The position numbers and the translations under genes were made by a program. 64,000 nt of DNA from Polyporus tsugae (lineage: Eukaryota; Basidiomycota; Agaricomycetes; Polyporales; Polyporaceae): positions 3,851,501 through 3,915,500 of the forward strand of contig JAHRBS010000010.1 of NCBI GenBank assembly GCA_024305745.1, in the 5' to 3' direction. Of the stretch, positions 21,890 through 64,000 are shown piece by piece. The notes beneath the pieces are model-generated. The model did not search any database. It saw only the letters and a program-made list of their open reading frames with translations, and was not told the origin of the DNA. Every line of letters begins with the position of its first letter. Positions within the stretch are counted from its first letter, which is position 1.

Positions 21890-23135
21890 AGGGAAGCGGC
21901 TGGCAGTCGGCGAGAGAATCGAAGGCGAAAAGCGCCGCGTCAAGTGCGTACATACAGGACTTGGATGGATCTGTTATTATCACACTAGGCTTTTTGATAT
22001 TGTACTGTTAGCCACCGACACATACGCACATTTCTAACACCACACTGTACGGAACACATCATTGGCAACAATCTGAATTCCGTCAGTCAAACACAGCGAT
22101 TATCCCTTAAAGTTATACAACGGGATAGAATGCGAAGGCGACTTGAATTTGCCCTGTGTCTCGAACACTCAAGGCTCGGTCCCGAACGGCCTTGTGCTTG
22201 ATGGAAGCATTGCGCGAGCGGTACAATACGTTCGGCCAGGTGCCGGAGATGGCGCGACGCTCATCTCTGTAAAGTCGTACATCCGGGCGTCGATCCTTCG
22301 CGTGGAATAAACCCATCCAAGTCGGCATCCACCAGCCCTGGTGTAAAACACGGCTGGGCCTTGTATTCTCGCCCGAGGAAAAAAAACACGTCCATTTCGG
22401 TTTTCCACGGTACGTACCTGCAACCACGGAACATCTGTTTTCCGTGGCCGTTTTCCGGGGGCGGAAGGCGCACAATTAATACCCCACGCCGAGAGGGCCC
22501 ACTCCTTCAAGGTGGCCGCAGAGATAGTCGGACATTGACTCGGTGTACACAATATGACAATGTATTCTGTATTTGTATGTTGCCAACTGTGGCAGTCAGC
22601 TGTACATGTGCTTCGAGCAGGGATATCGGTATTACAGGATAAGTTACAGTAACACAAGAACCGGGTATAGTCCATACGAACGAAACACTAATAAGCAACG
22701 AAAGATCTCGGAACGATTCTAGATAAAGCATGAAACTCGTATCCAAGCACCAAGCACCCGAGGTAAGCAAAGCTGGTCGTGAGGTGAAGACGCCGACGCT
22801 GACAGAGCAGGACCCAAGTAAGTAAGTCAAGTCACCGATCTCCAAAAACATCCTCTTCAGCCGCAGATCTGTCCTATAGCCCACACCGCGGCACCGACAG
22901 CCAGCCACATCACGCCAACCCCAGGCCCCGCGCAACACGTATCAGGAATCGCCGCCGCGGCGCTGCGACGCGGATGCAATGGCAGGCGAAAGTTCCCAGC
23001 CCAGCGAATCGGTCCCGGCCAGTCCCCCAGTTCCCCAGACCCAAGCCTCCAGTTCCGAATACCCAAGGTATGTAGTCGACCACGCTCCCCCGAAGCGATC
23101 GCGAACAATGCGCGCGCACCCTGCTGCTGCGCCTA
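21890..23135. other. Intergenic between two convergent genes, nothing supported
   Basis: No convincing coding stretch. The 3' ends of the dehydrogenase and the DUF6699 gene face each other across 1.2 kb. Confidence 0.4.
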
Positions 23136-24155
23136 CTACCGCCCCGACTCGACCGCGAGCTTCATCTTCGTGAACCCGTCCGGCCCGCTCTCGCGCATGA
23201 TCCCGCGGAACATGTACCGGTCCCCCAGGTAGTCGACGCGCCTTACGCCCTGCGCCTCCTCGAACGCCTGCGGGCTCGGGAAGTGTCTGCAGCGCCGCGT
23301 GTACGCCGCCGAGACCTCGTTCATCCGGCGCGCGGGCAGCCGCACCCAGTCGCTCTGGCTGATCCGCCGCTGCAGCGTCTTGTAGATCGCCATGAGCACG
23401 TCGTAGACGGTGATCGGCGCGTCCTCGGCCTCGCGCGGGGACACGGAGAGGAACGGGGAGCGCTCGCGCGAGCGTTCGCGCGGGGTGGTGTGCTGCTCGA
23501 GGTTCACGGGCCAGTCGGGGACGGCGTCGCACTTGATCGTCATCCGGTACACGGGCGGGTGCGTCGCGGGCTCGAGCAGCTCGTCGAGCGTGAGCGGGGT
23601 GCCGGACGTCTGGCCGAAGGAGGTGATGCGTTGCGGGTTGAAGGAGTGCAGGGAGAGATCGAAGAGGAGTTTGGGGCCCGCGGCGCTCTCGCCGTTGAGC
23701 AGAGGATGGATCTGCGCCGTTTGGGACGGGCTGGGTTGGAAGGCCATCGGGGCCGCCATTGGTGCGAACATGGTCGGGAACGTCACCCAGGCGGGCTGGG
23801 GAAGGCAGGTGTCGGAACGCCGTCTCTGATGGGTGAACATAGGAGTGGGGGCGTGTTGAGTGGGAAGAGGGACGATGGGAGGGAGTGGGGTGACGATGAT
23901 CGGGGGCGAGGGGAAGGGCGCTGGGTTTGGGGAAGGACCGAGGCTGGCGTGCCAGGAAGGTCGACGTTGACGTGGAGGGAAAGGCTCGCGGTCGTCATCG
24001 AAGCGGACGCGGCGCTCAGGCGGAGGGGGGACGAGAGGGGTAGGAGGGAGGGATGTCATGGGAGGGATGAAGGGTGAGACGTACGGTTGGTCGTAAAACG
24101 GCATCATGTACGGCGTCGGGTAGTAGAACTGAGGGTAGGCATATTGGTGAGCCAT
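23136..24155 (-). CDS. DUF6699-domain protein (339 aa)
   Basis: A single uninterrupted exon. Residues 1-150 are rich in Pro, Tyr and Ser (MAHQYAYPQFYYPTPYMMPF at the start) and probably disordered. The C-terminal part from about residue 180 contains PLTLDELLEPATHPPVYRM, ITVYDVLMAIYKTLQRRI and a final VDYLGDRYMFRGI, the pattern of the basidiomycete-specific DUF6699. The domain is expanded in agaricomycetes and has no assigned biochemical role. A TATA-like element lies 61 bp upstream of the start. Confidence 0.8.
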   Translation of the reverse strand: MAHQYAYPQFYYPTPYMMPFYDQPYVSPFIPPMTSLPPTPLVPPPPERRVRFDDDREPFPPRQRRPSWHASLGPSPNPAPFPSPPIIVTPLPPIVPLPTQHAPTPMFTHQRRRSDTCLPQPAWVTFPTMFAPMAAPMAFQPSPSQTAQIHPLLNGESAAGPKLLFDLSLHSFNPQRITSFGQTSGTPLTLDELLEPATHPPVYRMTIKCDAVPDWPVNLEQHTTPRERSRERSPFLSVSPREAEDAPITVYDVLMAIYKTLQRRISQSDWVRLPARRMNEVSAAYTRRCRHFPSPQAFEEAQGVRRVDYLGDRYMFRGIMRESGPDGFTKMKLAVESGR

Positions 24156-39722: not shown

Positions 39723-41759
39723 ATGCATAGGCGAAGGAAGACAGCAGGGCCGAGACGGGGGTTGGTGCTGGTGGCCCAAGTAAAAGCGAGCGGGGAGGTG
39801 GGTGCCCGGTGCAAGCAAGCTGCAAGTCCGTGCCCCGCGGGGTCGTGGTGGGCTGCAGCTCAGATCCAGTCCCGATCGCATCGAGATCCGGCGAGGGAGA
39901 GACCCGGGACACTGCCCGCAACGGCGACTGCAACCAGCTTTTGGCACACTCCGTTCGACCTCGGACGCACTCGTCAGGCAGCACAAGTCGTCTTAGCATG
40001 GTGGTGCGATGAGCTCCTTCAGTCATGGATCCTCGCTGACGTGCTGCGTCTCCAGATACCGTCTTGGCTGCCGCAAGAAGTCCTTCTGACCATCTTCAGG
40101 TTCACCGAACCCCCTTCACGTCTCTACCTACCCGATATACGCACAGGTCCAAGAAATCCTTGGCTAATCTCTCTCGCGACTAAGAAAGCTCTCATTCTCG
40201 TCTCCAAAGCATGGGCTGCCCCCGTCACCGAGTTTCTCTACTCCCACATCGTCCTTAGGAGAATGGGCCAGATTTCCGCACTCGCCCACACCTTCCGCGC
40301 GGCTGGAAACAAAACCCTTCCCAATCTTGTGCGCTCCCTGCATCTCGATATGTGTGTTGTCCTAACCCACTGCGCTGATGTCGTCCGCCAAGACTTCCAA
40401 TACATCCTCAGCCAGTCTACAATGCTCCTCGCCTTCACTTTCAATCCCCATCCCCATCCTCCATTCGACTATGAGTGTGGTCCCCCTCCTGGACAGCTTC
40501 TATCAGAACCTACTGCCTTCAACCCAACTTGGATACTTGACTTCGGCCATGAGTGCGCTGGCAGTCTCCTTGCCCGACTCCTCAACTCCCGCCTTCTGAC
40601 CTTGTCCCTCGGTCTCTCCATCGATGAGGGCAGTTTTAGCTCTCTCCCACAAATTCTTTCCTCCACGCCGCACCTCACCGACCTCGACCTCGGCCAAATC
40701 CTCCCAGGATCCAGCAATGTCCTTCCCGACCCATGGGCGACCCTCCCCGATCTGTTCTTTCCCGAGCTCAAGTCACCTTCCATCTACTGCGACTCTCGGC
40801 CATTCGTCCAATACGTCACCACACAATGGACCATGCCGCGCCTCGTGTATCTCTACTGCAAAGACCACATCCCCATGCGTCTCCTCACAGCCCACGGGAG
40901 GCAGCTGACCTACCTCCACTTCATCTACTCCGACTGGGATTCCCCTTACCCCTCCGCAAACACCCTCCTTCTACCGCGGTTGTACGACCTCTGTCCACGC
41001 ATCTCCCATCTCGTCGTCCGCCTCAGGTTTGAGGAACGCACCGCGCTCAACCTCAACTCCCCCACCCTCCGCTACCTCGACCTTATCCACAAGCCCTCCG
41101 TCGCCGCCTACCGCGCAATCGCCCTCGCGCCCACCGCTCATGCCCCGCAGCTCACGAAAGTCCGCATGGTCATGACCCCGTGCGACTTCTTCCCGCTGCA
41201 TTTCCACCCCTCGCACATGCCGGGCTCGGACCGCGCGCTCGAGGACCTCTCAGATATACCCGGTGCACGCGACTCGGACGAGCGCGCCGACTGGCTGATG
41301 CTCACGACGGGCGGGATCGAAGCATGGTGCCCGGAGGGGCGCGTGCGGCAGCACGCATGGGCGGTCGCGCTCGACGAGCTCTGCGAGGGGACCCTGCCTC
41401 CTGGCGCGGTGGGAGATCCCAGGATTCCGGACGACGACGAGACGGACTCGGAGGGCGTGTACGAGTACGAGTCGCTCCCTGTGAGTCCCGTGGAATCGGA
41501 CACGGACGATTCGGACGGCGATGGCGCAGAGGATGGAGGCGACGACGCCGGTGAGATGGAGGATACGTGTTCGGCGGAGGACGGCTTGGATTCGGATATG
41601 GAGCGCGAATGGTTCGAGGTGGAGCGGGAGATGCCCCCGTACCCGAACAAGGTCGCGTTTGTCGACGACCCTCTGGACTCGAGCCGGGGCCAGTACGACC
41701 GCGAAACGATACTCGAACGCTTTTCCCAGAGCCAGCTTGGAGACTTCCTTCTGGAATGA
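39723..41759 (+). CDS. F-box protein with LRR-like body and acidic tail
   Basis: One long open frame. The F-box starts near 40056 (SWLPQEVLLTIFRFTEPP) and is followed by leucine-rich, weakly repeated text (LTHCADVV, LLTLSLGLSI, HLTDLDLG, LNLNSPTLRYLDL). The last 120 residues are strongly acidic and end in DDPLDSSRGQYDR...LERFSQSQLGDFLLE. F-box proteins of this type present substrates to SCF ubiquitin ligases; substrate unknown. The only in-frame ATG upstream is at 39723, giving an odd 111-residue leader; the paralogue at 42565 starts right at its F-box, so translation here may begin from an unseen spliced exon near 40056. Confidence 0.7.
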   Translation: MHRRRKTAGPRRGLVLVAQVKASGEVGARCKQAASPCPAGSWWAAAQIQSRSHRDPARERPGTLPATATATSFWHTPFDLGRTRQAAQVVLAWWCDELLQSWILADVLRLQIPSWLPQEVLLTIFRFTEPPSRLYLPDIRTGPRNPWLISLATKKALILVSKAWAAPVTEFLYSHIVLRRMGQISALAHTFRAAGNKTLPNLVRSLHLDMCVVLTHCADVVRQDFQYILSQSTMLLAFTFNPHPHPPFDYECGPPPGQLLSEPTAFNPTWILDFGHECAGSLLARLLNSRLLTLSLGLSIDEGSFSSLPQILSSTPHLTDLDLGQILPGSSNVLPDPWATLPDLFFPELKSPSIYCDSRPFVQYVTTQWTMPRLVYLYCKDHIPMRLLTAHGRQLTYLHFIYSDWDSPYPSANTLLLPRLYDLCPRISHLVVRLRFEERTALNLNSPTLRYLDLIHKPSVAAYRAIALAPTAHAPQLTKVRMVMTPCDFFPLHFHPSHMPGSDRALEDLSDIPGARDSDERADWLMLTTGGIEAWCPEGRVRQHAWAVALDELCEGTLPPGAVGDPRIPDDDETDSEGVYEYESLPVSPVESDTDDSDGDGAEDGGDDAGEMEDTCSAEDGLDSDMEREWFEVEREMPPYPNKVAFVDDPLDSSRGQYDRETILERFSQSQLGDFLLE

Positions 41760-42564: not shown

Positions 42565-44309
42565 ATGTCGACACCCTCGCTTCCCCATGAAGTCCTTATC
42601 AACATATTTACCTACACTCAGCCGCCTCCTTACCGCCACGACCCCTTCATCGGTCATGGCCCACGAATTCCTTGGCTTCAAACGTTGCGAACGAAGAAGG
42701 CCCTCGTTCTCGTATGCCGATTGTGGTCTGCGCCCGCCACGGAGCTCCTCTACTCGGACATCGTCCTTAGAAGAATGGGCCAGATCTCTGCTCTCGCTAA
42801 TACCCTCCGCTCAGACGAGAAACAGACCCTCGCCAGGCTGGTCCGCGCCATCCGTATCCACTCGTGTGTCGTATTGACGCACTGCGCGGACGTCGTTCGT
42901 GAAGCTGACTTCGAATTTATCATCTCCCAGTGCACTGCACTTCTCTCCTTTGCTTTCCACCCACATCCGAGTCCGGGGTTCGGCTGCTCTCATGGCCCGG
43001 CTCTGGACAACTTCCGCTCGAATATGCTGCCTTCAATCCGAACTGGATACTGGACTGTGGGTCTGGCCGCGCTGGAAGCCTCCTCGCCCAACGGCTTGCC
43101 TCTGGCATGCACAGTTTCCACTGTGGTCTTGCCATCGATGACCGCCAGTTGGGCTCCCTTGTCCATATCCTTTCTTGCGCACCACATCTCACTTCCCTCT
43201 CCCTCGGAAACATTCCACCAGCGCGGCATTGCTTGTTACCAGTCTCTGGCCCGTCCTCGCCGCTTCTGAACCTCGTCTTCCCCGCGCTTGCCACTCTTTC
43301 TATCCATTGTGATCATGACTCCAATCCCTCATTCATCGACTATATCCGCACGCAGTGGACCATGCCTCGTCTTGCCTCTCTGATACTCTCATATTGCCCC
43401 ATCTCCTTCCTCGCCGCCCACGGCTCGAAGCTGTCCTACCTCAACGCAGGGTACATGGTCGGCGCAACAGAGCTCCTTGCACGCCTCCACGAGCTCTGCC
43501 CCTCCATCGTCCATCTCGTCTTCGCGAGCCCAACTCGGAACCCGGAGGTCCTCGACATCAACTCGCCCACCCTCCGCTACCTCGACCTCTTCAAGTTCGA
43601 TCCACACACGTCTGTTTCCATCTACAGATCCCTCACCCTCAGCGAGACGACGCGCGCGCCCCAGCTCAGAAAAGTCCGGATGCTGTCCGATCTCGCGATA
43701 CCCTACGCCGACCTCTGCTGCCACCCCGAGCTCATGCCAGGCTCCCAGCGCGCGGCGGTCGAGGACGTCTCGGGCGAACCGGGCGCGCGCGAGTCGGACA
43801 AGCTCGCCGACTGGTTCCTGCACACGTCCGGCGGGATTGTGCACACGCTCCCCGACGGCCTGCGCCGAGTCCGCCAGCACTCGTGGGCGCTCGTGCACGA
43901 CGCCGTCGTGCCTCGCGAGAACATCAGGGACCCCAGAATACCGGTCAGAGACGAGGCGGACTCGGAGGACGAGGACGAGTTCCAGTGCGGCGACCCGTCC
44001 ATTTTGTTGTCGCAGTACCCAGACTCCGAGGGGGCGGATACAGAGTCGGAGGCAGATGACGATGTCGAGGATGTCAGCTGCGGGGACGTAAATGGTGGCG
44101 AGGAGGGTCATGCGCCTGAAGAGTTGGACTCGGGCTCCGATTCGGACATGACGCGTGCGACGCTTCGACGGTGGAGTCCGCGGACTGCCACTTGGTCCTT
44201 CCCCGCATTTGTGGACGACGCCCTGGATTCGAGCCGAGGGCAGTACGATCGCACAGCCATACTCCAGCGACTCTCTCAAAGCCAGCTTGGTGACTACCTC
44301 TTGGACTGA
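42565..44309 (+). pseudogene. Tandem F-box paralogue with a frameshift
   Basis: The start MSTPSLPHEVLINIFTYTQP gives an F-box at once, and the body aligns throughout with the protein at 39723-41759 (LRRMGQISALA, VVLTHCADVV, AFNPNWILD, LDINSPTLRYLDLF, acidic tail, ALDSSRGQYDR...SQSQLGDYLLD). The frame shifts at about 43000: the paralogue has PPPGQL where this copy needs one more base, and no GT-AG intron fits. Unless the base is a sequencing error, the product is truncated after about 150 residues. The downstream frame is otherwise intact for 430 codons, so the break is recent. Confidence 0.75.
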
Positions 44310-51748: not shown

Positions 51749-52771
51749 ACATCCCGAGTAGGGACCCTTTGCGAGGCACATTATCCATACCCTACTCTAG
51801 CTCCCAACAGACGATCCGAGCCTGCTACATGCTTATTCATGCTACTCGCTGACGGACTGCAATCATACTTACCATTGTTCCCTCCGTGTTGTCTGAATGT
51901 GGGGTCGCTCCGTCTCCTTTAGATCGAGACTCGGCCTGACGCGATGGCCCCGCCGTCGACACCAGAGAAGGGTTATGGGAAGATATTCAGTGGATGGACC
52001 CTAGGGTCGAGATAACCCCTAGTCTAGGGTTAAAACCTGGTAGGACGAGCGCTGGGTTGCCTTATAAGGCAGCATGTAAGTAGAAGACAAGACAAGACTG
52101 AGTGAATGAACTCGATAAGCAACTTATCGCTCTGCGGACTGGGGCATGAGCGGCCTGCACCACTGCTAGATTAAGTACATGTGAAAGCTTGGATTGGTGA
52201 TCCAGCCTTCCGAGAAGTCCACTCACTCCACCGTGCTGGTCCGGGAGGGCAGAAAACTTTCACAGAGACATGTTGCAACTATGGGCCTCCAGGAAGGCCA
52301 CCGGACACAGCACCTCTGTGCACATGTGAGACAGCACTGCACCTACCGGTCTGGACCATCCGCCAAATCAAGGTGCCCCTGTGGTAGGTGGCCCTCCAGG
52401 AAGGCCACAAGAGACAGGACTACGTCGGATGTCAGGGACTGGCTAGGGTTATGGGAACATCTCAGCCCTCTATCCCTAGGGATGAAATAACCCCTAGGGT
52501 AGGGTTTAGCCCTCCTAAGCGACCGGCTAAACAGCACTAAGCGCCTGCCTAGCCAGCGCTAAGCGCTTGGCTCCTAAGCGAGGGACCATTAGCGCCAGCA
52601 CCGTACAAAGAGAACAGTAAGTCGGATGTGATAAGGGAGTAAGGAGTCCGGTATTAGCAACTGAGAATCGGAGTGGTAAGTGGACTTACATCCACATTGA
52701 TGGAGTGAGCAAGGAGGATATAAAGAGGATAAGGGTGGGAAGATAGAAGAGAGCGGGGGGCAGAGCAGGGG
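51749..52771. other. Boundary stretch with short direct repeats
   Basis: No gene. A block CCCTAGGG..GA.ATAACCCCTAG..TAGGGTT occurs at 51999-52031 and again at 52473-52506. CCTCCAGGAAGGCCAC occurs near 52287 and 52391. CTAAGCG recurs five times at 52515-52585. This marks the change from ordinary gene space to the palindrome-rich region. Confidence 0.6.
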
Positions 52772-52840
52772 TATCCGTCCTGGACGGACAGCCGAGTATA
52801 GGACCACGCACATGTGGTGGGGCAAGGGCAGTCCCGCAGG

Positions 52841-53328
52841 TGTCCGTCCAGGACGGACAGGTCCGGTGTTAGACCTGGCTCATATTGCAATGATGTGCCA
52901 ACTGGCCTGCATGGTCATTACAAAGCACCTATCTCTTTTGCTTCGTTCAATGCCCCTATTATGCGGTGCATTGATGCATTAACATTAACTGATCTTTAAG
53001 TCTTTATTCGGCTGAATTATTGGTAGACTAGTGCCCATATCTTGTTGTTCTGCCCATCGGTAGTGCGTGTGCGGTCAGGCGTCGGGCCATAGGTCTCCAT
53101 CCTGCACGGACACACTGTGCATGGGGTGCGACCAAGTGCAGTACTTAGCTGATATACTGCTACTAATGAATACTGTCCCGTATGCTAATAACACGGCGGG
53201 GTAAAGACATTGATGCATTGATCAATTGACCACTTAATAGTGGCATTGAACGAAGCAATACTGATATAATAACCTTGCAAGCCAGTTTGCAGCGGGAGGC
53301 AGGACAAGCATCTGAGCTGTCCGTCCAC
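52841..53328. mobile_element. Foldback element 1, centred on a degenerate palindrome
   Basis: The left end carries a full 19-mer (52841-52859) and the right end a half-site (53319-53328). The arms are degenerate inverted repeats around the centre at 53094-53112: for example CCAACTGGCCTGCATGGTCAT on the left against the reversed right arm with CAAACTGGCTTGCAAGGTTAT, and GCATTGATGCATTAA against TGATGCATTGATC. Related in sequence to the elements at 54650 and 56312. No open reading frame. Confidence 0.7.
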
Positions 53329-53459
53329 TTCATTGACTAAGTCCATCTCCTAGACCAAGACAGGCCATGACATTGAGTTACAATATGCAATGCGACAACA
53401 TATTAAGCAATACACGCAGTACAGACACCGTCCTACTTTCTCACCCAAGACATCGGCGC

Positions 53460-54214
53460 TCACGGTGCCGCTGCTGTGTCCCAGTAGACACTGTGCCTGA
53501 CAACAGTGGTCACTGCAGAGAAAACAGTTAGTAACTCTATACCGCGAACAGATCGGGTTGATACTCACACTCGTTGCGACTCGTGATGTCTTCTTTGAGG
53601 TGCGCCAAAAGACGCGCCTTCACCTCCGTGACCTCCGCATCCGCCATGTGCAGCTTGCCCTCCGTCCTCTGGTTCATCTCCTCGGCGTACTCAGCGGCGG
53701 CTTCCTCGGCCTTTCCGCGTGCTTGCAAGTACGTGTGCATCGCTGCGCAGAAGTTGTCTTGCGTCGCCTTCATCCGCCTGACCCGCGTAATGATGGAGTA
53801 TTCCTCACCAAACTCCCGCAGATCCCGAAGGCCAGGCCGCTCGTGATACGGCAGGCTGGCGAGGTGGCTGTACAGCGTGCTGAACTCGCTATCCACATTC
53901 ACCAACGGAGGCAGCGCGCGCACTAGCATTAGGAACGCCGACATCGTGTACGACGCGTTCAAACTAGCAGGCTGCAGCGTCGCGCCTGTGATGGGGGTCG
54001 ATTGTGTAAGTGTGGATGGGTGGCGGGAGACAGTCCGGGTGACGTAGTTGATGACCTCCTGGTGCACAAAGTCGTCGATGAAGCTCATAGCGGTGAGAAT
54101 GACAGTGATGCGATGGCTGCTCTCCCAACTTGCGGTCCCTTTATATTCATCGCCAGGCGGGCTCATCCATGCGGCCAGCACCTCCACGGCCTTCCTTTTC
54201 ACTTCACCGTCCAT
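53460..54214 (-). CDS. Unknown coiled-coil protein, copy 1 of a divergent pair (232 aa)
   Basis: Exons 54214-53569 and 53512-53460 splice through a 56-nt intron with GTGAGTAT donor, a CTAAC branch site and CTGCAG acceptor, giving 232 residues. Residues 1-42 (MDGEVKRKAVEVLAAWMSPP at the start) and about 90-125 (SAFLMLVRALPPLVNVDSEF, LYSHLASLPYHERP) are nearly identical to copy 2. Residues 43-88 differ widely. The C-terminal third is Ala/Glu/Lys-rich with heptad spacing (QARGKAEEAAAEYAEEM) and should form a coiled coil. No signal peptide, membrane helix or known domain is seen. Its intact start, intron and frame suggest a working gene. Function unknown; the context suggests a repeat-associated or selfish gene, which is inference. 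Confidence 0.7.
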
Positions 54215-54649
54215 CCCATAAGTCCTCCCTTCTTGCCGGGGTCTCCATCAACACTCCTTAGTACATTCAAGTCCATCAGGTTCATTCTATACATAGACAG
54301 TCATGTTCCTCGGTACCGTGGAACATCCCTTCCCTTCCTTCCTTCTACAACAGAACACGTAATTCCTATATCAGGCCACTTCGTGTCCGCTTCAGAAGCC
54401 AATGTGGGCGTGAACCTACTATATTGTTAATTGACAGAATATGACGTCCTCCCACACTGTGCTATATGTTTTCTACTCTTTGTGTTTCACCTACACATAT
54501 GTTCTCACTCAATTGTAAATGGGATTGAACTCCTGTGAGAAGTGTGTGACGAGACGGTTGTCGAAGTCCTCACCAGCCGAGTGAGTGTCTCTAGCAGCAG
54601 TCCTCCAAACCTATTCTCGGTTCTACCATCAGTGAAGTTTGTACTCGCA

Positions 54650-54895
54650 ACTGGTGCACATTTATTGTGTTCTACCCGTCTTAGCCAACAATTAAAGAGG
54701 TGAATGCGACACTACTTTACGGCATTAAAGGAAGCTGATTGTAAGACTAAGGGCAGTATGGTCAGGCGTCATGACAGCGGTGTCCGTCCGGGACGGACAC
54801 TCTGCACGGGTTGGGACCAAGTGCGGTACTCGCTGAGCCGCCAAAACAGCAAACGTCTCCAACTGACGTACTGCCACTAATAGATACTGTCCCTT
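54650..54895. mobile_element. Central spacer related to the foldback elements, with a palindrome in the middle
   Basis: The left half (GAATGCGACACTACTTTACGG, GGTCAGGCGTCATG) matches the left arm of the element at 56312. The right half (GACCAAGTGCGGTACTCGCTG, CACTAATAGATACTGTCCC) matches the right arm of the element at 52841. A perfect 19-mer palindrome with central G (54781-54799) sits between. It probably also holds the two promoters of the divergent genes. Confidence 0.65.
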
Positions 54896-55341
54896 GCGAG
54901 TGCAAACTTCACTGATGGTAGAACCGAGAATAGGTTTGGAGGACTGCTGCTAGAGACACTCACTCGGCTGGTGAGGACTTCGACAACCGTCTCGTCACAC
55001 ACTTCTCACAGGAGTTCAATCCCATTTACAATTGAGTGAGAACATATGTGTAGGTGAAACACAAAGAGTAGAAAACATATAGCACAGTGTGGGAGGACGT
55101 CATATTCTGTCAATTAACAATATAGTAGGTTCACGCCCACATTGGCTTCTGAAGCGGACACAAAGTGGCCTGATATAGGAATTACGTGTTCTGTTGTAGA
55201 AGGAAGGAAGGGAAGGGATGTTCCGCGGTACCGAGGAACATGACTGTCTATGTATAGAATGAACCTGATGGACTTGAATGTACTAAGGAGTGTTGATGGA
55301 GACCCCGGCAAGAAGGGAGGACTTATGGGACGGACGGTGAA

Positions 55342-56076
55342 GTGAAAAGGAAGGCCGTGGAGGTGCTGGCCGCATGGATGAGCCCGCCTGGCGATGAATA
55401 TAAAGGGACCGCAAGTTGGGAGAGCAGCCATCGCATCACTGTCATTCTCACCGCTATGAACTCTGTCGACCAGTTTGTGTCCTATGAGCTCAAGGCCTTC
55501 GTCGGCCGCATTGTCACCAGTAACCTATCCCCACCATCGACCCCCATCCCAGGCCCGAGGCCGCAGCCTGTTAGGTTCAGCGCGTCGTATGCGATGTCAG
55601 CATTCCTAATGCTAGTGCGCGCGCTGCCTCCGTTGGTGAATGTGGATAGCGAGTTCAGCACGCTGTACAGCCACCTCGCCAGCCTGCCGTATCACGAGCG
55701 GCCTAGCAGTCGGGCGCTGAGGGAGTTTGGTGAAGAATACTCCATCATTACGCGGGTGAGGCAGATGAACACGGCGCAAGACAACTTCAGCAACGCGATG
55801 CACTCGTACTTGCAAGCACGCAGGAAGGCCGAGAAAGCCGCAGCTCAGTATGCCCAGGAGGTGACCAACGGGGCAGAGTTCGCGCTGCAAATGGCGGATG
55901 CGGAGGTCGTGGACGCGAGGGTGCAACTGTTGGTGTACCTCAAACAAGACGTTACCAGTCTCCGCGAGCATGCGTATTACCCGATCTATTCGCGGTGTAG
56001 AGTTGCTAACTGTTTCTCTGCAGTGACCACCGTTGTCAGGCACGGTGTGTTCTGGGGCTCGACAGCCGCGCCGTGA
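55342..56076 (+). pseudogene. Unknown coiled-coil protein, copy 2; start codon and intron donor lost
   Basis: An open frame of 244 codons is homologous to copy 1. The ATG used by copy 1 is ACG here (55331-55333), and the ATG at 55325 is out of frame and meets a stop at once. The intron donor GTGAGTAT of copy 1 is replaced by CATGCGTA, yet the former intron stays open and rejoins the conserved end TTVVRHGVFWGSTAAP. Conserved blocks: KRKAVEVLAAWMSPPGDEYK, SAFLMLVRALPPLVNVDSEF, EFGEEYSIITRVR. The block after codon 42 is diverged (NSVDQFVSYELKAFVGRIVT). Either a fresh pseudogene or a gene with an unseen upstream start. Confidence 0.6.
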
Positions 56077-56311
56077 GCGTTGATGTCGTCCTCCGGCGGC
56101 CGTCCTCGATACCCTCCAGTGGGCGAGAAAGCAGGCGAAGAGGACGGAGAAGGCGGGAGGAGGGTGCACGCGTGATGGTTGGGTCGGCGACAGCGATGTT
56201 TGGCGGGGGTGTCTGTATTTTGCGCATGGAGTTGGTTGATACGTTGTCATATCGCATATTGTTTTGTAACATAATGTCATGGCCTGTCTTGGAGATGACT
56301 AGTGCATGAAG

Positions 56312-56865
56312 TGGACGGACAGGTCGGATGTAAGGCCCTATGCAGACTGGCCTGCAAGGTTATCATTCGACGCTACTATTAAGTGGTGGATTAATGAATG
56401 CATCAATGCCTTTACCTGGCCGAGTTATTAGCACACCAGTGCGCATTTATTGGGTTCTACTGGTGTTAGCTAATGATTAATAAAAGGTGAATGCGACACT
56501 ACTCTAAGGCATTAACGGAAGCCAGTGGTAAGTTCACGGTCAGTGGTGGGAACACGGTCGGGCGCCATGCTAGAGGTGTCCGTCCTGGACGGACACCACT
56601 AGCGTGGCGCCTGACTGTGCTCCCACCACTGATCGTGAACTAATGACTGGCGTCCGTTAATGCCATAGCATCGCACTCACCTCTTTATTAATCATTAACT
56701 AACACCAGTAGAACCCAATAAATGCGCACTGGTGTGCTAATAACTCGGCCAGGTAAAGGCATTGATGCATTCATTAATCCACCACTTAATAGTAGCGTCG
56801 AATGATAACTCTACAGGCCAGTTTGCATAGGGCCTTACATCCGACCTGTCCGTCCTGGACGGACA
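56312..56865. mobile_element. Foldback element 3, about 550 bp, centred on a perfect palindrome
   Basis: The arms of about 270 bp mirror each other around the 19-mer at 56577-56595. Examples: GCGCATTTATTGGGTTCTACTG on the left and CAGTAGAACCCAATAAATGCGC on the right; GGTCGGATGTAAGGCCCTATG at the left end and CATAGGGCCTTACATCCGACC at the right end. The right end has a full 19-mer (56847-56865), the left end a half-site. The whole element could fold into one long hairpin. No open reading frame. Confidence 0.85.
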
Positions 56866-57473
56866 CCTGCTGCACTGGCCCTGTCCACCACATATGCGTG
56901 CGGGGCTTAACCTCAGCAGTTGGAGTGAATATTAACAACAAACTAAGGGTGTACTTCGCTGTCAAGGCTTCAATTTCGTTATCACATTGCGTCATGAGCA
57001 ACTTATAGGGCAAGAGTCTGCGGGCACTGCGCGAACGACGGTGGTGGCCGACACATTCCTCAAGTACGGATACCATGCACGAAGGTGCTGACATTGAACC
57101 GTAGTCAATGTTCTTCCTCAATGGAGAGGCCTGCCCTGTTGGACTTAGTCCCAGAACCGCAGTATAGCTTCGACGGATATCTCGAACCTCTACTCCGTCA
57201 TGCGCACTCCGCGGCAGTGATATAATGACGTAAGGTCGAAGTCCGAGAACTGGCTGACATCGACCTTTCCTCGGCTGTGGTTTGGCTGGAACCTTACCGT
57301 AAACGGTAGCTTCGCATACCTTCGCTTGTGGGCTAACTATTTTCCCCCTAGGCCAGCTTCCGGACTTCGGCCTTACTTTGTCGTCCTAGCCCTTGCCGTA
57401 AGGAAGGCACGACTCTCACACTTTCGGGATATTTAATCCAGTCCCGACCTCACTGACCCCGCATTGAGTCACG
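56866..57473. other. Intergenic, nothing supported
   Basis: No gene or repeat recognised. GATATTTAAT near 57429 may be the TATA element of the reading frame that follows. Confidence 0.35.
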
Positions 57474-58137
57474 ATGCGCCCCCTCCCCGTAGCGTCACGC
57501 ACCAGCACCAGTACCGACGAGACTGTCCGCCCCCCCGTGCGTCCGCGGGACGTGGATGCTCAGAGCCTTCACCCGCTCTCTGCGGAGGATGCTGACGAAC
57601 ATGGAGAGGATGGGAGTCTCACTTCTACGGAGTCTGGCACCAATGACTCCGGGCAGTGCTCCATTGTTCTCACCAACAACCTCGGGGTCGATTGCTTGGT
57701 ATCTGGGCGGGAGCTTGACGACGAAATTGAACTCGCCAACTACAATGCAACACAGCATCGTGGGGTTAGAATACGCTCACTTGAAAAGGTCAGATCCACA
57801 TGTTTGTCAGGATGCCAACCCCTCTGATGAATATGGTTTGCTAGCTCCCTCCGTGCCGCCCTCCTCCTCTAGGCCCATTACCACCCCCTCCTATTCAGCC
57901 TCTGCCTCCTGTGCGCTTCAGCGAGGCTCCACCTCCTGCTCAGCCTATGGGCATTGTCGACTCTTCTCCCTGGCGTCTTGCAAGGGCTTACAGTCCCGTT
58001 CGCCCCACTACTCGCCTGAGGGACGTAAGCACCCCACCGTAAGCCCAAGTTGTCTGTTTCTAGAGGCGTTTGCTTACCGGAATCTAGCTTTGACAGTGGT
58101 GGACCGTCGAGGGCTATTTCTTTCAAGCGCGAAGTGA
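57474..58137 (+). CDS. Unidentified Ser/Pro-rich protein, tentative
   Basis: The first exon (57474 to about 57788) reads MRPLPVASRTSTSTDETVRP and continues with acidic, Ser-rich text ending at a possible GT donor after RIRSLEK. A later open stretch (from about 57895) reads PIQPLPPVRFSEAPPPAQPM and SSPWRLARAYSPVRPTTRLR before a GTAAGC donor. The composition resembles the gag-like or disordered N-terminal part of fungal mobile-element proteins, but no catalytic domain follows. A TATA-like ATATTTAA lies 45 bp upstream. Joins uncertain. Confidence 0.35.
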
Positions 58138-58430
58138 ATAAGAAACCTTGGTATGATGGATGCTGTTTCCAGTAGGCAAAAACTGCTACAGCTTATCTTG
58201 GCTTGTGAGGATTAGTAGGACGGCCTGTGGGTTACAAGTTGGGAGTTACATTGATTTGTGTTAGGCGAATATTGTGTATAATGTGATGATCTGTCTGGAG
58301 CTTAACGCCCTGAGGTGGCTGTAGCTAATGAGCTGCTTATGTGAACACCACGTAGACGTAGAACTTGATGGCGAAGTAGTGAGTTAGTCATCAACTTTTT
58401 ACTAGATAAAGACGGAGCAGATACACTCTA
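58138..58430. other. Intergenic, nothing supported
   Basis: AT-rich stretch with no recognised gene. Confidence 0.35.
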
Positions 58431-58431
58431 C

Positions 58432-58596
58432 ACCAGTGTACCAATAATAACACACAGGGTGTCAAGACTTGATGTTAATGCGTCTATTGATGCAATGTTT
58501 AATAGCAGCATTGAATGAGAACAAAGCAATACATAGTAATGCCAGTCGGTATAGCATTGTGGTGTGAGCACCCGTCCTGTCCGTCCTGGACGGACA
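58432..58596. mobile_element. Half foldback element ending in a palindrome
   Basis: Similar to the right arm of the element at 56312 (ACCAGTGTACCAATAATAACAC, TTAATAGCAGCATTGAATGA) and ends with the same 19-mer (58578-58596). The left arm is missing. Confidence 0.55.
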
Positions 58597-58814
58597 CCTG
58601 CCGCACTGCATGTGCGTCCCACCATCCTCGGCCGTCCGTCCTGGACGGACACCTGCTACACTGCATGTGCAGGACGGATACCACTGGGGTGTGAGCACCC
58701 GTCCTGTCCGTCCTGGACGGACACCTGCCGCACTGCGCGTGCGTCCCCCGATCCCCAGCCGTCCGTCCTGGACGGACACCTGCCACACTGCATGTGCAGG
58801 ACGGATACCACTGC
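58561..58814. repeat. Two tandem 127-bp units, each with two palindromes
   Basis: Unit 1 is 58561-58687 and unit 2 is 58688-58814. Both start GGTGTGAGCACCCGTCC and end with GCAGGACGGATACCACTG. Palindromes at 58578/58705 and 58633/58760 keep the exact 127-bp period. Each unit ends with a half-site (AGGACGGATA). Confidence 0.85.
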
Positions 58815-59489
58815 TCTGTCACCTGCTGCCATTTACATCTGTACAATTGCGAGTGTGATTCGTCATAATGAAATTCGGCAAGTAATAGTTATTGGATAAC
58901 GAGAAGTTGCGCTAATAACAAGTGGCACGCTGAACAACGACCCATAGAACTTGAACACGCACGAACGGCTGCTTTCACACGTGGCTGGACATGGGCCAGA
59001 CAGGCATGGGTGCGTGGCCGTCCGTCCTGGACGGACAGGTGTCGTGCGAGGGGTGTGTGGGTGCCCGTGCAGCCGTGTCCGTCCAGGACGGGCTCTTCTG
59101 GGTGCACAGCGCCAGCAGCACACACCTGTGATATTCCGCGTGAGCACAGCCTTGAGGATTGATAGACGCGACAGTTCGTCGGGGAGAGGAATGTAGATGA
59201 GCTGGTCGGGAGGGGATCTGGTCAGGCCTGTTCGTCAAAAGGTTTGGAATCCGTCTTGGACAAGGCAGGTAAGCCCTACATCCATTTATTGTACCGCGCA
59301 ATTCAACCCGTGCTGTTCTGTTGAAGGGGGGGTCACAGATTGAGATTAAGAGGTATGGATAAGGTAAACATATGGGAAGATACAGTCCTATCGACAGTCC
59401 AACAAACAATCTCAGCCGTGCGTCGTATCCAGAATGCTATAGTACAGTTGTCCGAGTCAAACGAGAGCGATATGCGAAGAATAACAAGT
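58815..59489. other. Spacer with two more palindromes
   Basis: Contains the copies at 59019-59037 and 59076-59094 (the second with a decayed end). Otherwise the 3' flank of the helicase gene. No coding stretch supported. Confidence 0.5.
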
Positions 59490-62400
59490 CTACTTGCGGC
59501 CGAGCTGACTCGCCTTACCAGGCCGGCCGCTCCCCGCGACCCGCTTCAGAAAAATGTCCTTGGCCTCCATTGGCCGATCGCTGTCGCTATCGTCGCGCCT
59601 AGATGCGCGGCCGCCAGAAGCCCCACCACCACGACCGCCGGCGGGAGAAGAGCCAGAGGCACCCGCGCCGCTCCCAGAGGCACCCGCGCCGCTCCCAGAG
59701 GCACCCGCGCCGCTCCCAGAGGCACCCGCGCCCTCTCCTGCAACCCTCTTCGCCGGTGGGCTGCGACCTTCGGGCGCCGGGTCCACGTCGAAGTCGAAAT
59801 GAAAGTTCTGGGGGAGGGTGACTGCCTGGGCCAGTTGCTCTCTCTCGGCTTCCTCGCGTTTGCGCTTTAGGGCCTGCCTCTCCTTCTTCTCCTTCTTCTT
59901 CTGCCGCTTGGCCTTCTGCTCGTCGTCCACCTCTTCATCGCGATGCCCTGACACGTTGGCCGTGCGCTTCAAGGGGAGAGCGTTGGGGGTGGCGGGGGCG
60001 TCGGGACGGGTCTGACGCGAGGGCCCGGGCTCCGCGCGTGTGTCCTCGGTGCGCGCCGACGATGAGGCCGCTGGTGCCCTCGGTGTAGGCCTAACCTTGG
60101 GCTTGGACACCTTGGGCTGGGGGGCTAGCTCGGGCACGGGCTCGGGCACGGGCTCGGGCGCGGGCTCGGGCGCGGGGTGCTTCTTCTTGTCCTTCTTGCT
60201 GTTCTTCCCCGCCGGCGCAGACTGGGACTGGCGCGATTCGAGCACCACTTCTGGCAAGAGCTTCCTGCGGTCGCGCTTGGAGGGCTGGGTTGGGGCAGGC
60301 TCAGGCTGCTGGTCGTTGTCATCCTCGGGAGCGACCCTTGCGGTGGCGGCGACCTTGCTCTTGCCCTTGGCTCTCGGTTGCTCGGCCTCCTCGCCCTCGT
60401 CAGCGACGACGGCGGGCGACTTGGGCTTGGGCTTGGGCTTGGGCTTGGGCTTGGGCTTGGGCTTGGGCGTGGATGCACGGGTGGAGGCGGGGGGGGCTGC
60501 CTTGGCCTTACCCTTAGCCTTGCCTTTCGGCTGCTCGTCCTCGCTCTCCTCGTCGTCGCTCTCCTTGCTCTCCTCGTCTTCGTCAGCGACGACGGCGGGC
60601 GACTTGGGCTTGGGCTTGGGCTTGGGCTTGGGCTTGGACGCGGGGGGGGCTGCCTTGGCCGCAGGCTTGGCCTTGCCTTTCGGCTGCTCGTCCTCGCCCT
60701 CCTCGTCCTCGCTCTCCTTGTCCTCGCTCTCCGAGCTCTCCTTGTCCTCGTCAGCGACGGCGGGCGACTTGGCCTTGGCCTTGGACGTGGACGCCCGGGT
60801 GGACGCCTGGGTGGATGCACGGGTGGATGCCCGGGTGGCTGCCTTGGCCGCAGGCTTGGCCTTGGTCTTCGTCGCGGGCTCCGGCTCGGGCTCGTCATCC
60901 TCGTCACTGTCATCCCGGAGCCCGGCCGGAAGGAGATGACGGAAGATGGATTCTACAGTACATTAGTAAACAGCTGTTAGAGTCATAAAGATAATAATTA
61001 AAAACTTACTTGTCTGCTTCGACGACTTGGTGAAGGCGGCGAGGAGCGCGTTCTTCGAGAACGAGAGAACGCTCAGGAACATGTCCGTGGCGTGCTCGAG
61101 GCAAGGCTGGTAAACCAACACCTGCTTCTTCTGGGGGTGGCGCCAAATGCGACCGATCAGTTGAAGCAAGTCCTGGTGCGACCACATTTGATCCTGTTTG
61201 GATGTTAGGTAAGAAATAACAACAGTAAGACATAGAACCTTACCAAGGCGACGAGGATGTTGGCCTGGGGGAGGTTGAGGCCCATCGTGCCAACGTTCGA
61301 CAACAGGCAAACACGGGGTCCGTCGCGGTCGGAGTTGCGGAACTTGGCTATGTCCTTTGAGCGCACGGACATGCGCTTGGAGCCGTTGACCTCGATGTAC
61401 TTGATGCCGTAGAAGCTCAAGACCTGCGAAATCAAAGTATATAAGTAATGATAACGACAGAAGAAAAGTGTTAATTGCCTTCGTGATGAGGTGGTTGTTG
61501 GAAGGGAAGGCGACGTAGACGATGATGCGGTCGGGATAGTCGGTTTCGTCGTCGCGCTCCTGCATTTCCCATTTGGGATCCGCCTCCAAGTCGTTGCTGT
61601 CTTGCGAGGGGCGGCGAAGGAGCGGGGCGTTGTCGTCGGCGAGGTGATGGAGGAGGATGTCGATGAGGTTCTGGAGCTTCGTAGAGGTGGTGGCCTCCCA
61701 CTCCTCCATATCTTTCGGCGCCCAGAGCGGGTCATCAAGGAGCTTGTAGTGGAGGTGGCTGCGGCGGAAACGACCGTAGAAAGCCTGGATGAACAGTGTG
61801 TGAGCAACAGTGGAGATGAACAAAGTGTGTCCGTCCCGGACGGACACCGGGGGATGGGCCCCTGCGGTTCAATAACAAATCGACGTGAAATCCACCACGC
61901 CGCATTTCACGAGGTCTCAGTGGAAATCTATCCGTCCAGGACGGACAAGGAGAGCGAGGGGCCTGCCCGATGTCTTCTCGTCTCCCCACGCGCCAATGGT
62001 ATCCGTCCCGGACGGACAGGTGAGAGGGAGGGGCCCGCCTGCCAGTGGTCTCGCGGAGATCCACGACACTCTTGGCGGCATCCGGCCCATAGACAGGAGT
62101 CAGCGCAGAAGTGTCCGTCCCGGACGGACACCTGCAGCCACCGTGCTTGCATCACGATTGCCACCAGTGCGAAACCGTGAACAGGCATCGGCGCACTATG
62201 TGTCCGTCCTGGACGGACACCTCTGACACTCCAGCCTGCCGCATGTTGGGACGCGGCACTGTGCCCCTGTGTGTCCGTCCAGGACGGACACTTCGAGACC
62301 CGGTCGTGTCTCGAAGCGTCCGCCCTGTGTGTCTTGAGTATCAACGAGAACGAGAAGACTTACGTGTCCTTCAGCCTGCGCAACCATCGCGGCAGTGCGC

Positions 62401-64000
62401 GCGGTGTCGTGCTCAGCGACAATCGCGGCTGCTGTCGCCTCCAACACCTCCGACTCCTCGTCCAACGGCGTGAGCATTATTTGTTGGGCGACGTAAGGGC
62501 TCAGCCCCGAGATGGGACGCCCCTCCCAGTCGACGGCGTCCAGGGTGCGGCGGATGGTGTGGCCGTTGAACATCTTGCGAAGCGCGACGGTGTACGAGGT
62601 CATTTGCTTGACCTGCTCCTTCTTGGCCGGGAGGTCGATCTCGCCGTTGAGGATCCCCTGTACGAAGTCGCCGTCCTCGCGAGCGTTGCGGAACTCGATG
62701 TTGGACTTGCGCGCGGCGGCCATGAGCTTCTTCTTCATGTCGACCAAGAGTGTTTCCTCCTCGCAGGCGGGGATCCCGATACACCGGCCGATGTACACCA
62801 AGTCCTGTTAAAGGGCAGTCAGTATGGTCCCACAACCAGCATAAGAAACGTACTTACCAAGGGCGAGTTCGTGATGGGCGTCGCCGTCGCCGCGATGGTG
62901 CAGTGGGAGAGGAGGGAGAGCTCATTCATTGTCGTCCAGTGGTGGCTGGGGTTGCGCATCTTGGCCGCCTCGTCGATGGTGGTGATGCCGAACTGGTAAT
63001 CGTACAGCATCGACCTCATGGGCAGCGCGGAGTCACGTTCGGGCCGCTGGGGAGCGATCTTCTTCGTGTTCGTGAACCGCTGCGAACAATCGGACTCGGC
63101 GGCCTACAGACGTTAGCATGCATATTCAGAAGTTAATAAACAAAGCTGGGCTGCTTACCGTGTACGCGACGAGCAGAACCTTGTGGCTCAGCGTCTGCTT
63201 GTCGTCCTTGAGGTGGAACACTTCGTCCCAGATCGCCATCCTCCCGGACTGGGCCCACTGGTGCTTGTACGGGTAGATGTCGACAGAGCCGAACTTGACG
63301 TACCGCTTGAACTCGAACATCCATTGGTCGAATAGCGGGACCGGGACGATGATGAGGTGGGGACGGTCGGGCAAGTTCCCGTCCGGCGTGTCGCACTTCA
63401 GGCCCTCTGTAATACACACTGTTAGTAAATGCAAGTAACGAGCAGAAAAGGCAAAGACTTACTGAATTGCGGGGGGAACCTTTTGTTCCTCTGGTAGTAC
63501 GCGCGAAGCATCGGGTACATGACTATGGCGCCGACGATCTGGAGCGTCTTGCCGACGCCGACTTGGTCCATGAGGAGGAGGGGTTTGCCCTTGATGATGA
63601 GCTCGCACATCTTCGTGATCCCGACGAGCTGATGCCACCGGGGACCGAAAGCGAGCGCCTTGTCGGTGTTGACGAACTTAGCCCACTGCGTCGGGTCCCA
63701 GGGGTTGACCTCGCCACGCGGATCCTCGACCTCGTTGAACCCAGGGATCTGCTCGTTGTTCAGCCCAAGGCCGGCCCAAAGCTCCTGCGGGTCCTTGTCC
63801 TGGAGGTCCTCGACGCCCGTCAGCCAGTCCGAGAAGTCGAACTCGTCGGCAGCTTCGGCGACCGCGTCGAGGTAGTGTTCGGGGAGGTCGTCCATCGCTT
63901 GCTCGAGCTCGCACAGGACGATGTGCACCGTTGGCGTGTCCGCGAGGGCCTTGAGGGCCTTCAGGAGGCCGGCGGGAATGCCTGTAAATCAAACGCGTCA
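59490..64000 (-). CDS. SNF2-type helicase/ATPase with long disordered tail, 5' partial
   Basis: Exons, 5' to 3': 63981-63463, 63406-63159, 63103-62858, 62804-62364, 61784-61479, 61423-61244, 61193-61010 and 60952-59490; the gene continues past 64000. Superfamily 2 motifs are in order: I LLLMDQVGVGKTLQ, II TIDEAAKMRN, III IAATATPITNSP, V NVGTMGLNLPQANILV and VI QLIGRIWRHPQKKQ. This is the SNF2 layout, though motif II has DEAA instead of DEAH/DEGH. The last exon encodes 486 low-complexity residues: acidic Ser/Glu blocks, (KP)n runs, Ala/Pro repeats and a GAGASGS repeat. The intron 61785-62363 holds six 19-bp palindromes, and the intron after 61479 seems to start with GC rather than GT. The role (chromatin remodelling, repair or element maintenance) is not readable. 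Confidence 0.8.
59640..59740 (-). repeat. Coding minisatellite, about four 21-bp units
   Basis: Units of GAGGCACCCGCGCCGCTCCCA on the plus strand encode repeated GAGASGS near the C-terminus of the helicase. Confidence 0.8.
60421..60640 (-). repeat. Two CTTGGG hexamer arrays coding Lys-Pro runs
   Basis: At about 60424-60468 and 60606-60637, tandem hexamers encode (PK)n runs in the tail of the helicase. The surrounding blocks (KSPAVVADE and DEQPKGKAK) are also duplicated, so a larger segment was tandemly copied. Confidence 0.8.
61785..62363 (-). repeat. Helicase intron loaded with six palindromes
   Basis: Palindromes at 61828, 61929, 62000, 62112, 62201 and 62272 are spaced about 70-110 bp apart. 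The intron is 579 nt; the other introns of this gene are 50-60 nt. Splice sites GTAAGT and CATCCAG are intact. Confidence 0.85.

Follow-up and report, generated by a model that had tools for sequence, protein, structure and literature searches.

Phage repressors recognise their own operators, stoperator systems confer immunity specificity, and the subterminal repeats of Spm/En-type transposons are bound by TNPA. Fungal mitochondria carry GC clusters and double-hairpin elements, short GC-rich palindromes found in many non-coding places, and the TLH family and the UTAS of Ustilago are names for subtelomeric RecQ-type helicase elements. Two papers describe fungal subtelomeres with multi-copy superfamily-2 RecQ-type helicase genes, including those of A. 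bisporus var. burnettii (PMC10817607, PMC7473861), and a third describes mycobacteriophage stoperators, many copies of an asymmetric recognition word that lie across the genome and are recognised by a monomeric repressor (PMC9283540). Here we analyze a 64,000-nt stretch of the Polyporus tsugae genome (the window; C13:3851501-3915500, where C denotes a contig), the right end of which carries a family of 19-bp palindromes together with a subtelomeric element of two genes, one for an SNF2-type ATPase and one, gene A, for a protein of unknown family. This element exists in the genome as three lineages, each of which has its own palindromic word at matching places.

The word in the window, termed type 1, was TGTCCGTCC-N-GGACGGACA. 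It matched 18 times at up to three mismatches, always between positions 52772 and 62290, against an expectation of 0.04 and a maximum of one match in any of 100 dinucleotide-shuffled versions of the window, while its exact 15-bp core (TCCGTCC-N-GGACGGA) was present 16 times, the earliest at 52774. A blind search that accepted any odd palindrome with 8-bp arms returned one in positions 1-52000 (five shuffles, 0-3) and 26 in the right part of the window and its continuation to the chromosome end (shuffles, 1-2), 25 of which were the type 1 word. The initial annotation of the window had reported at least 16 near-perfect copies in the right 9.5 kb and none in the first 52 kb, with a free central base, an outer pair of TG, TA, or CG, and copies within an intron, in tandem units and in foldbacks. 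All of these observations were borne out: the variants were as described, one SNF2 intron held six palindromes, two 127-bp tandem units held four, and the center and right end of a 543-bp foldback held two.

Across the whole 43.2 Mb assembly, the exact core occurred 313 times and the reversed-pattern control not once. Specifically, 217 of the 313 copies were placed as distinct sites, using three subclasses that were listed completely (center C or G, n=39; outer TA, n=68; outer CG, n=44), further sites listed in the genome and those in the stretches of chromosome ends that were fetched. All but one of the placed sites (216) were no more than 40.9 kb from a contig end, a zone that makes up 3.5% of the genome; the single internal site was at C4:276364. 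The window's own right edge is 27.6 kb from the end of C13, which spans 3943075 nt and carries TTAGGG repeats at its right end, as do 12 of 18 left contig ends. The initial annotation had suggested both the genome-wide search and the mapping against telomeres, and neither outcome that it considered damaging, an even distribution or a loss of arm symmetry elsewhere, was observed. Near-identical large subtelomeric blocks were common to different chromosome ends. Additionally, positions 52743-60391 of the window were repeated at C13:3918818-3926421, as a 7.6-kb segment with 99.3% identity lying 14.6 kb nearer the telomere.

The blocks encode the SNF2-type ATPase and gene A on the same strand. Genome searches recovered nine near-identical type 1 copies of the SNF2 gene (C3, C6, C8, both ends of C13, C14, and one left and two right on C16), all within tens of kb of contig ends, as well as one copy on C2 (49% identity) and one on C5 (43%); other genomic SNF2 pieces showed 28 to 59% identity. 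Gene A was found in eight type 1 copies with 99-100% identity, two of them with one internal TGA, and in diverged copies on C2 (46-57%) and C5 (47%, with one TGA in the matched frame). The genome holds, then, three diverged lineages of the gene pair, at 43-57% amino-acid identity to type 1. Between lineages, exon 2 of gene A (296 codons) differed by 0.39-0.40, 0.29-0.33, and 0.59-0.61 at codon positions 1, 2, and 3, respectively; third positions differ most, which is what selection on a coding sequence predicts, and gene A is thus constrained. In Pfam, the type 2 SNF2 homologue matched Helicase_C (2.3e-9) and SNF2-rel_dom (2.6e-6) and no other family, so that no RecQ-type helicase domain was found, and the best PDB matches were remodelling ATPases and Rad8 (E 2e-4 to 0.01).

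Each lineage was associated with a different word. The type 2 word, from the C2 end, was TGGNCYTCC-N-GGARGNCCA, seen as TGGCCCTCC-N-GGAGGGCCA and kin, and its general pattern occurred at 27 genomic places (control, 1), of which 22 were at C2:2918-16762, two in the window (52282 and 52389), and the others at C3:191658, C6:33521, and C13:3402121. The type 3 word, ACCCGACC-N-GGTCGGGT, was found in 8 kb of C5 fetched around the third gene A. It had 35 genomic copies (control, 0), 30 of them at C5:15385-31413, three at C17:3029473-3029687, one at C13:1521124, and one at about C4:276614. In the fetched stretches, type 1 sites (two mismatches) were absent from the C2 and C5 elements, type 3 sites were absent from C8, C2, and the C13 right arm, and type 2 sites (one mismatch, two free positions) were absent from C5 and C8 and present in the C13 right arm only as the two window copies. 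The three words have in common only a central CC-N-GG and, in each arm, the C at position 5. From one lineage to another the two arms have changed in concert, which is the pattern expected of a dimeric protein with changing specificity, although not proof of binding.

The placement of the words was also conserved. Sites fill the flanks of both genes, many of them upstream of start codons, and recur in one long SNF2 intron, the position of which is common to the three lineages as judged from homologous flanking coding sequence. This intron contained seven type 1 sites in the C8 copy, seven type 2 sites (four by a strict criterion, under which type 2 had 26 sites in total and none in coding blocks) and six type 3 sites. 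The homologous C2 intron, flanked by coding sequence for AQAEGH on one side and for AFYGQFRR on the other, extends from about 11667 to 11061. For C5 we forecast in writing, before the sequence was fetched, a long intron with the type 3 word at about 22.5-23.5 kb, and sites upstream of the gene as well; the intron found (donor 23325, acceptor 22683) had six type 3 sites at 22770-23217, and the fetched stretch had two more upstream. Within zone limits that we drew from homology and open reading frames (ORFs), the coding blocks, including short introns, contained no site in 5787 bp (type 1), one weak site in 8446 bp (type 2) and none in 8002 bp (type 3), and the pooled non-coding zones contained 24 sites in 3950 bp, 37 in 5855 bp, and 23 in 3299 bp, respectively. 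An element-specific word that recurs many times in non-coding sequence, as found here, is a feature of operator-like or stoperator-like self-recognition systems.

Pairing between the arms did not exceed that of arm-letter shuffles in any lineage. For type 1, across 37 distinct contexts, 302 of 333 cells were paired versus a shuffled mean of 301.9, and 1082 of 2000 shuffles reached the observed value; type 3 had 147 of 162 cells paired versus 147.2, and type 2 had 224 of 279 versus 225.9. In the latter, arm position 4 was free, and position 6 was C or T in each arm without being matched to the other. The initial annotation had proposed a search for compensatory changes, of which none was evident, and its statement that the arms stay complementary holds for type 1 because both arms fit a single consensus, not through compensation. 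Arms that vary independently within a lineage therefore point to half-sites for a dimeric protein and not to mobile hairpins. The flanks also showed two-fold symmetric preferences. Counted from the edge of the palindrome, those of type 1 (65 half-flanks) included C at +1, T at +3, G at +7, and CTG at +16 to +18, and those of type 2 (55 half-flanks) were T at +3, G at +6, G at +12, and C at +14; they reached 27 and 23 bp from the center, respectively. The suggestion in the initial annotation that the palindromes are sites for a dimeric protein fits well with these independent half-sites and symmetric flanks, and with the lineage words at matching places.

A second subtelomeric family, gene B, resembled this arrangement with two different words of its own, one in each lineage. 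Its protein has a ParB-like motif, FLSGxHRxEA (read by eye), and falls into two lineages with 28% identity. On C1, C5, and C17, in the fetched stretches, gene B was accompanied by clusters of TGCGAG-N3-GCAG-N5-CTGC-N3-CTCGCA (21, 25, and 16 hits, respectively, at up to three mismatches), which occupied the region upstream of the gene and the space that separates coding blocks 2 and 3. The gene B copy at the C13 right end had 12 copies of GTCCGCGCGGAC in 25-bp steps (3933600-3933911) in that space between blocks 2 and 3, a position given by the blocks and not by defined splice sites; one further copy lay at 3929156 and five at 3938245-3938381. The left ends of C7 and C11 (stretches L011 and L015) each had two copies of a further odd palindrome, AAAGTCGA-N-TCGACTTT.

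From these sequence patterns, it is quite probable that the palindromes are protein-binding sites of some kind. Our preferred reading, to which we assign a probability of about 0.55, is that they serve as docking sites for a dimer of the element's own making and its SNF2 ATPase, which would set the element's chromatin and expression, and that word and protein have changed together. Each lineage's word, repeated in the long SNF2 intron and along the flanks of the two genes, would be the private address code of the two-gene element: a dimeric DNA-binding protein, probably element-encoded, would recognise the two-fold symmetric word, its binding would recruit the ATPase to the promoters and the intron of the element itself, and the ATPase would there set the element's own chromatin state and expression. 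By changing word and protein jointly, the lineages would have become independent, and separate words may keep lineages in one nucleus from cross-reacting, in the manner of phage repressors. Candidate binders are the gene A protein and some part of the SNF2 protein that is not catalytic. More broadly, and with the odds somewhat against it, we tentatively propose a class of subtelomeric elements (SNF2 with gene A, and the gene with the ParB-like motif) whose orthogonal self-recognition codes, each a private two-fold symmetric word recurring in the flanks and in a fixed intron, co-diverge with the encoded proteins, such that siblings in one nucleus address only themselves. This would be a possible eukaryotic parallel to the specificity of phage immunity or of plasmid partition.

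Several observations weigh against the self-docking interpretation. Gene A pieces had no Pfam match above the cut-off, no NCBIfam match and no fold match, and gene A as the binder is a guess because neither protein family nor fold was found. In type 1 gene A precedes SNF2, and in types 2 and 3 the order is reversed; site placement therefore follows the genes and is not that of a frozen block. The type 3 flanks (29 half-flanks) had no extra symmetry above threshold, and 13 of the 217 placed type 1 sites were at ends (C5, both of C17, and C3 right) where genome searches found no type 1 gene. The gene B words are built differently, one being a double inverted repeat of 31 nt and the other an even palindrome of 12 bp, and the parallel with the SNF2/gene A element is therefore one of placement only. 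A 68-bp foldback unit with a palindrome was present in three and missing in six SNF2 intron copies, a difference that a mobile-hairpin model predicts too. Moreover, concerted evolution of local repeats could be another source of lineage-specific words. Finally, all data come from one genome, parts of whose chromosome ends were fetched, and 96 of the 313 type 1 sites were not placed.

Among the alternatives, the one that survives best, although we consider it unlikely, is an unlinked host protein that follows or drives each lineage's words, for instance a zinc-finger repressor that evolves fast or a factor for silencing or boundaries in subtelomeres. It would be consistent with the confinement of placed sites to subtelomeres and with the presence of sites at ends lacking the element genes. 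The internal locus on C4 could also be a host control region: its type 1 site (C4:276364) and type 3 site (about C4:276613) are 249 bp apart in single-copy sequence, and the nearest contig end is 231 kb away. The two sites are free of overlapping long ORFs, and genome searches placed no SNF2 or gene A copy on C4. By composition, the genome is expected to hold 0.33 type 1 and 0.027 type 3 sites of the kind paired there, and a distance this short between either of two internal type 3 sites and the sole known internal type 1 site has a probability of about 2e-5, a value computed after the pair was seen and assuming no further internal type 1 site among those unplaced. The locus speaks for the self-docking reading as well, possibly as a host target of both factors. 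However, the genome has three words that share only CC-N-GG and one C, and each goes with a different gene pair; this would need at least three host proteins or one of broad specificity.

Spreading as a hairpin or foldback element, similar to a GC cluster, whereby the palindrome is itself a mobile unit whose insertions are tolerated only in non-coding DNA, was also raised by the initial annotation and appears improbable. Some copies do lie at the centers and ends of foldbacks, and seven-site SNF2 introns (C6, C8, and C13 left) differ from six-site introns (C3, C13 right, C14, and three on C16) by the 68-bp inverted-repeat unit between two palindrome halves, the split being taken from site counts with sequences compared for one of each (L012:9438-9524 versus window 62000-62018). 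That unit could be either a dyad-centered insertion or a deletion between direct copies, and the latter explains the difference equally well. Beyond the missing arm covariation, only one of 37 type 1, one of 31 type 2 (weakly), and one of 17 type 3 sites lay within a longer inverted repeat, and type 1 flanks were no more complementary within a site than between different sites (6.57 versus 6.32 of 20). A mobile unit should cross between lineages, and in the fetched stretches the words stay with their own. The 543-bp foldback had at least 68 genomic matches, at least ten of them full-length, and all those among the matches listed were in subtelomeric blocks.

We regard as similarly improbable that the words have no function and are local repeats spread and homogenised per lineage by gene conversion and unequal exchange. 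The large blocks shared by chromosome ends and the clear tandem arrays in which some sites lie would agree with this, but many sites have unrelated flanks (37 distinct contexts among 118 type 1 sites), and drift would hardly yield arrays in the same intron, or odd palindromes centered on CC-N-GG, on three occasions. Hairpins in the pre-mRNA, formed in untranslated regions and the intron, are very improbable: some palindromes are intronic or near gene ends, but type 2 sense-strand mismatches (C:A 17, A:C 1, T:G 10, G:T 2) were not biased toward wobble (G-U) pairs, the strongly conserved central C-N-G should be unable to pair in a hairpin, many sites are upstream of start codons, and the window had no Rfam match at gathering thresholds.

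Coordinates of the features discussed (positions in the window unless a contig, C, or a stretch, L, is named)
Feature	Position	Strand	Remark
Type 2 palindrome TGGGCCTCC-A-GGAAGGCCA	52282..52300	.	inner edge of the window's block
Type 2 palindrome TGGCCCTCC-A-GGAAGGCCA	52389..52407	.	inner edge of the window's block
Type 1 palindrome, outer TA	52772..52790	.	pattern match; opens 218-bp unit tandemly repeated elsewhere
Type 1 palindrome, exact	52841..52859	.	pattern match
Type 1 palindrome, decayed, 3 mismatches	53094..53112	.	pattern match
Large foldback	53449..56087	.	arms 53449-54650 and 54894-56087; one unknown-family ORF per arm
Type 1 palindrome, exact	54781..54799	.	pattern match; between large-foldback arms
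543-bp foldback	56313..56855	.	two-fold center is palindrome at 56577; at least 10 full-length genomic copies
Type 1 palindrome, exact	56577..56595	.	pattern match; center of 543-bp foldback
Type 1 palindrome, exact	56847..56865	.	pattern match; right end of 543-bp foldback
Two 127-bp tandem units	58561..58813	.	palindromes at 58578, 58633, 58705, 58760
Type 1 palindrome, outer CG	59019..59037	.	pattern match
Type 1 palindrome, 2 mismatches	59076..59094	.	pattern match
SNF2-type ATPase gene, multi-exon	59490..64000	-	extends past window; start codon C13:3916453; 3' limit inferred from last ORF
SNF2 intron, 579 nt, GTAAGT...CCAG	61785..62363	-	six type 1 palindromes; long introns at same position in types 2 and 3
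Intron palindrome (type 1), exact	61828..61846	.	pattern match
Intron palindrome (type 1), outer TA	61929..61947	.	pattern match
Intron palindrome (type 1), outer TA	62000..62018	.	C8 has two palindromes 68 bp apart here; C6 and C13 left likewise by site spacing
Intron palindrome (type 1), exact	62112..62130	.	pattern match
Intron palindrome (type 1), exact	62201..62219	.	pattern match
Intron palindrome (type 1), exact	62272..62290	.	pattern match
C4 internal two-word locus	C4:276364-276630 (L038:1864-2130)
Gene B stretches, C13 right end	L024:6174-9713; L033:2745-2881
Gene B stretches, other	L005:931-4752; L021:1030-8614; L035:386-2671

The two ORFs of the large foldback (53537-54214, minus strand; 55342-56076, plus strand) are paired members of one unknown protein family, and the former had no Pfam match. 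Elsewhere in the window, a 651-aa ORF at 7114-9069 had the look, by eye, of a DDE-type transposase. Two adjacent long ORFs (39723-41759 and 42930-44309) looked alike, and the first of these had its best protein matches in Ganoderma leucocontextum (88%), with one Ganoderma match named F-box domain-containing; by these matches the fungus belongs to Ganoderma or is closely related to it.

If the elements' own proteins do bind the words, this genome would contain naturally occurring protein-DNA pairs that are orthogonal to one another, that arose several times from one ancestor and that are linked to an ATPase of the chromatin-remodelling type at the ends of chromosomes. Two questions would then become directly testable: how a specificity and its sites change jointly without loss of function, and by what means the gene elements of subtelomeres regulate themselves and avoid one another. 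For annotation, a simple rule follows for any telomere-to-telomere mushroom genome, namely to look for a palindrome in the long SNF2 intron.

Compared with the described subtelomeric RecQ elements, the element shares a multi-copy superfamily-2 ATPase gene near telomeres, here with nine SNF2 copies within tens of kb, and differs in that its ATPase is of the SNF2 type, is paired with gene A and has private palindrome arrays. The strings 'palindrom' and 'SNF2' had no occurrence in the main texts of PMC10817607 and PMC7473861, and a literature search at the level of titles and abstract starts, with most subscription journals outside its coverage, returned no lineage-private palindromes in such elements. 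Mitochondrial GC clusters and double-hairpin elements are likewise short GC-rich palindromes in many non-coding places, whereas the palindromes here are nuclear, subtelomeric, lineage-bound and without arm covariation. As in Spm/En-type transposons, arrays of short element-specific words lie outside coding sequence, with binding putative here; unlike in those transposons, sites occupy a fixed intron, and in the ORFs scanned (gene A pieces and the foldback ORF 53537-54214) Pfam found no transposase domain. By analogy, the nearest working system is that of the mycobacteriophage stoperators. The sites described here differ from these in being two-fold symmetric, eukaryotic and nuclear, and clustered in an intron, with a binder that is only predicted, and resemble them in that many copies of a recognition word are spread over the element.

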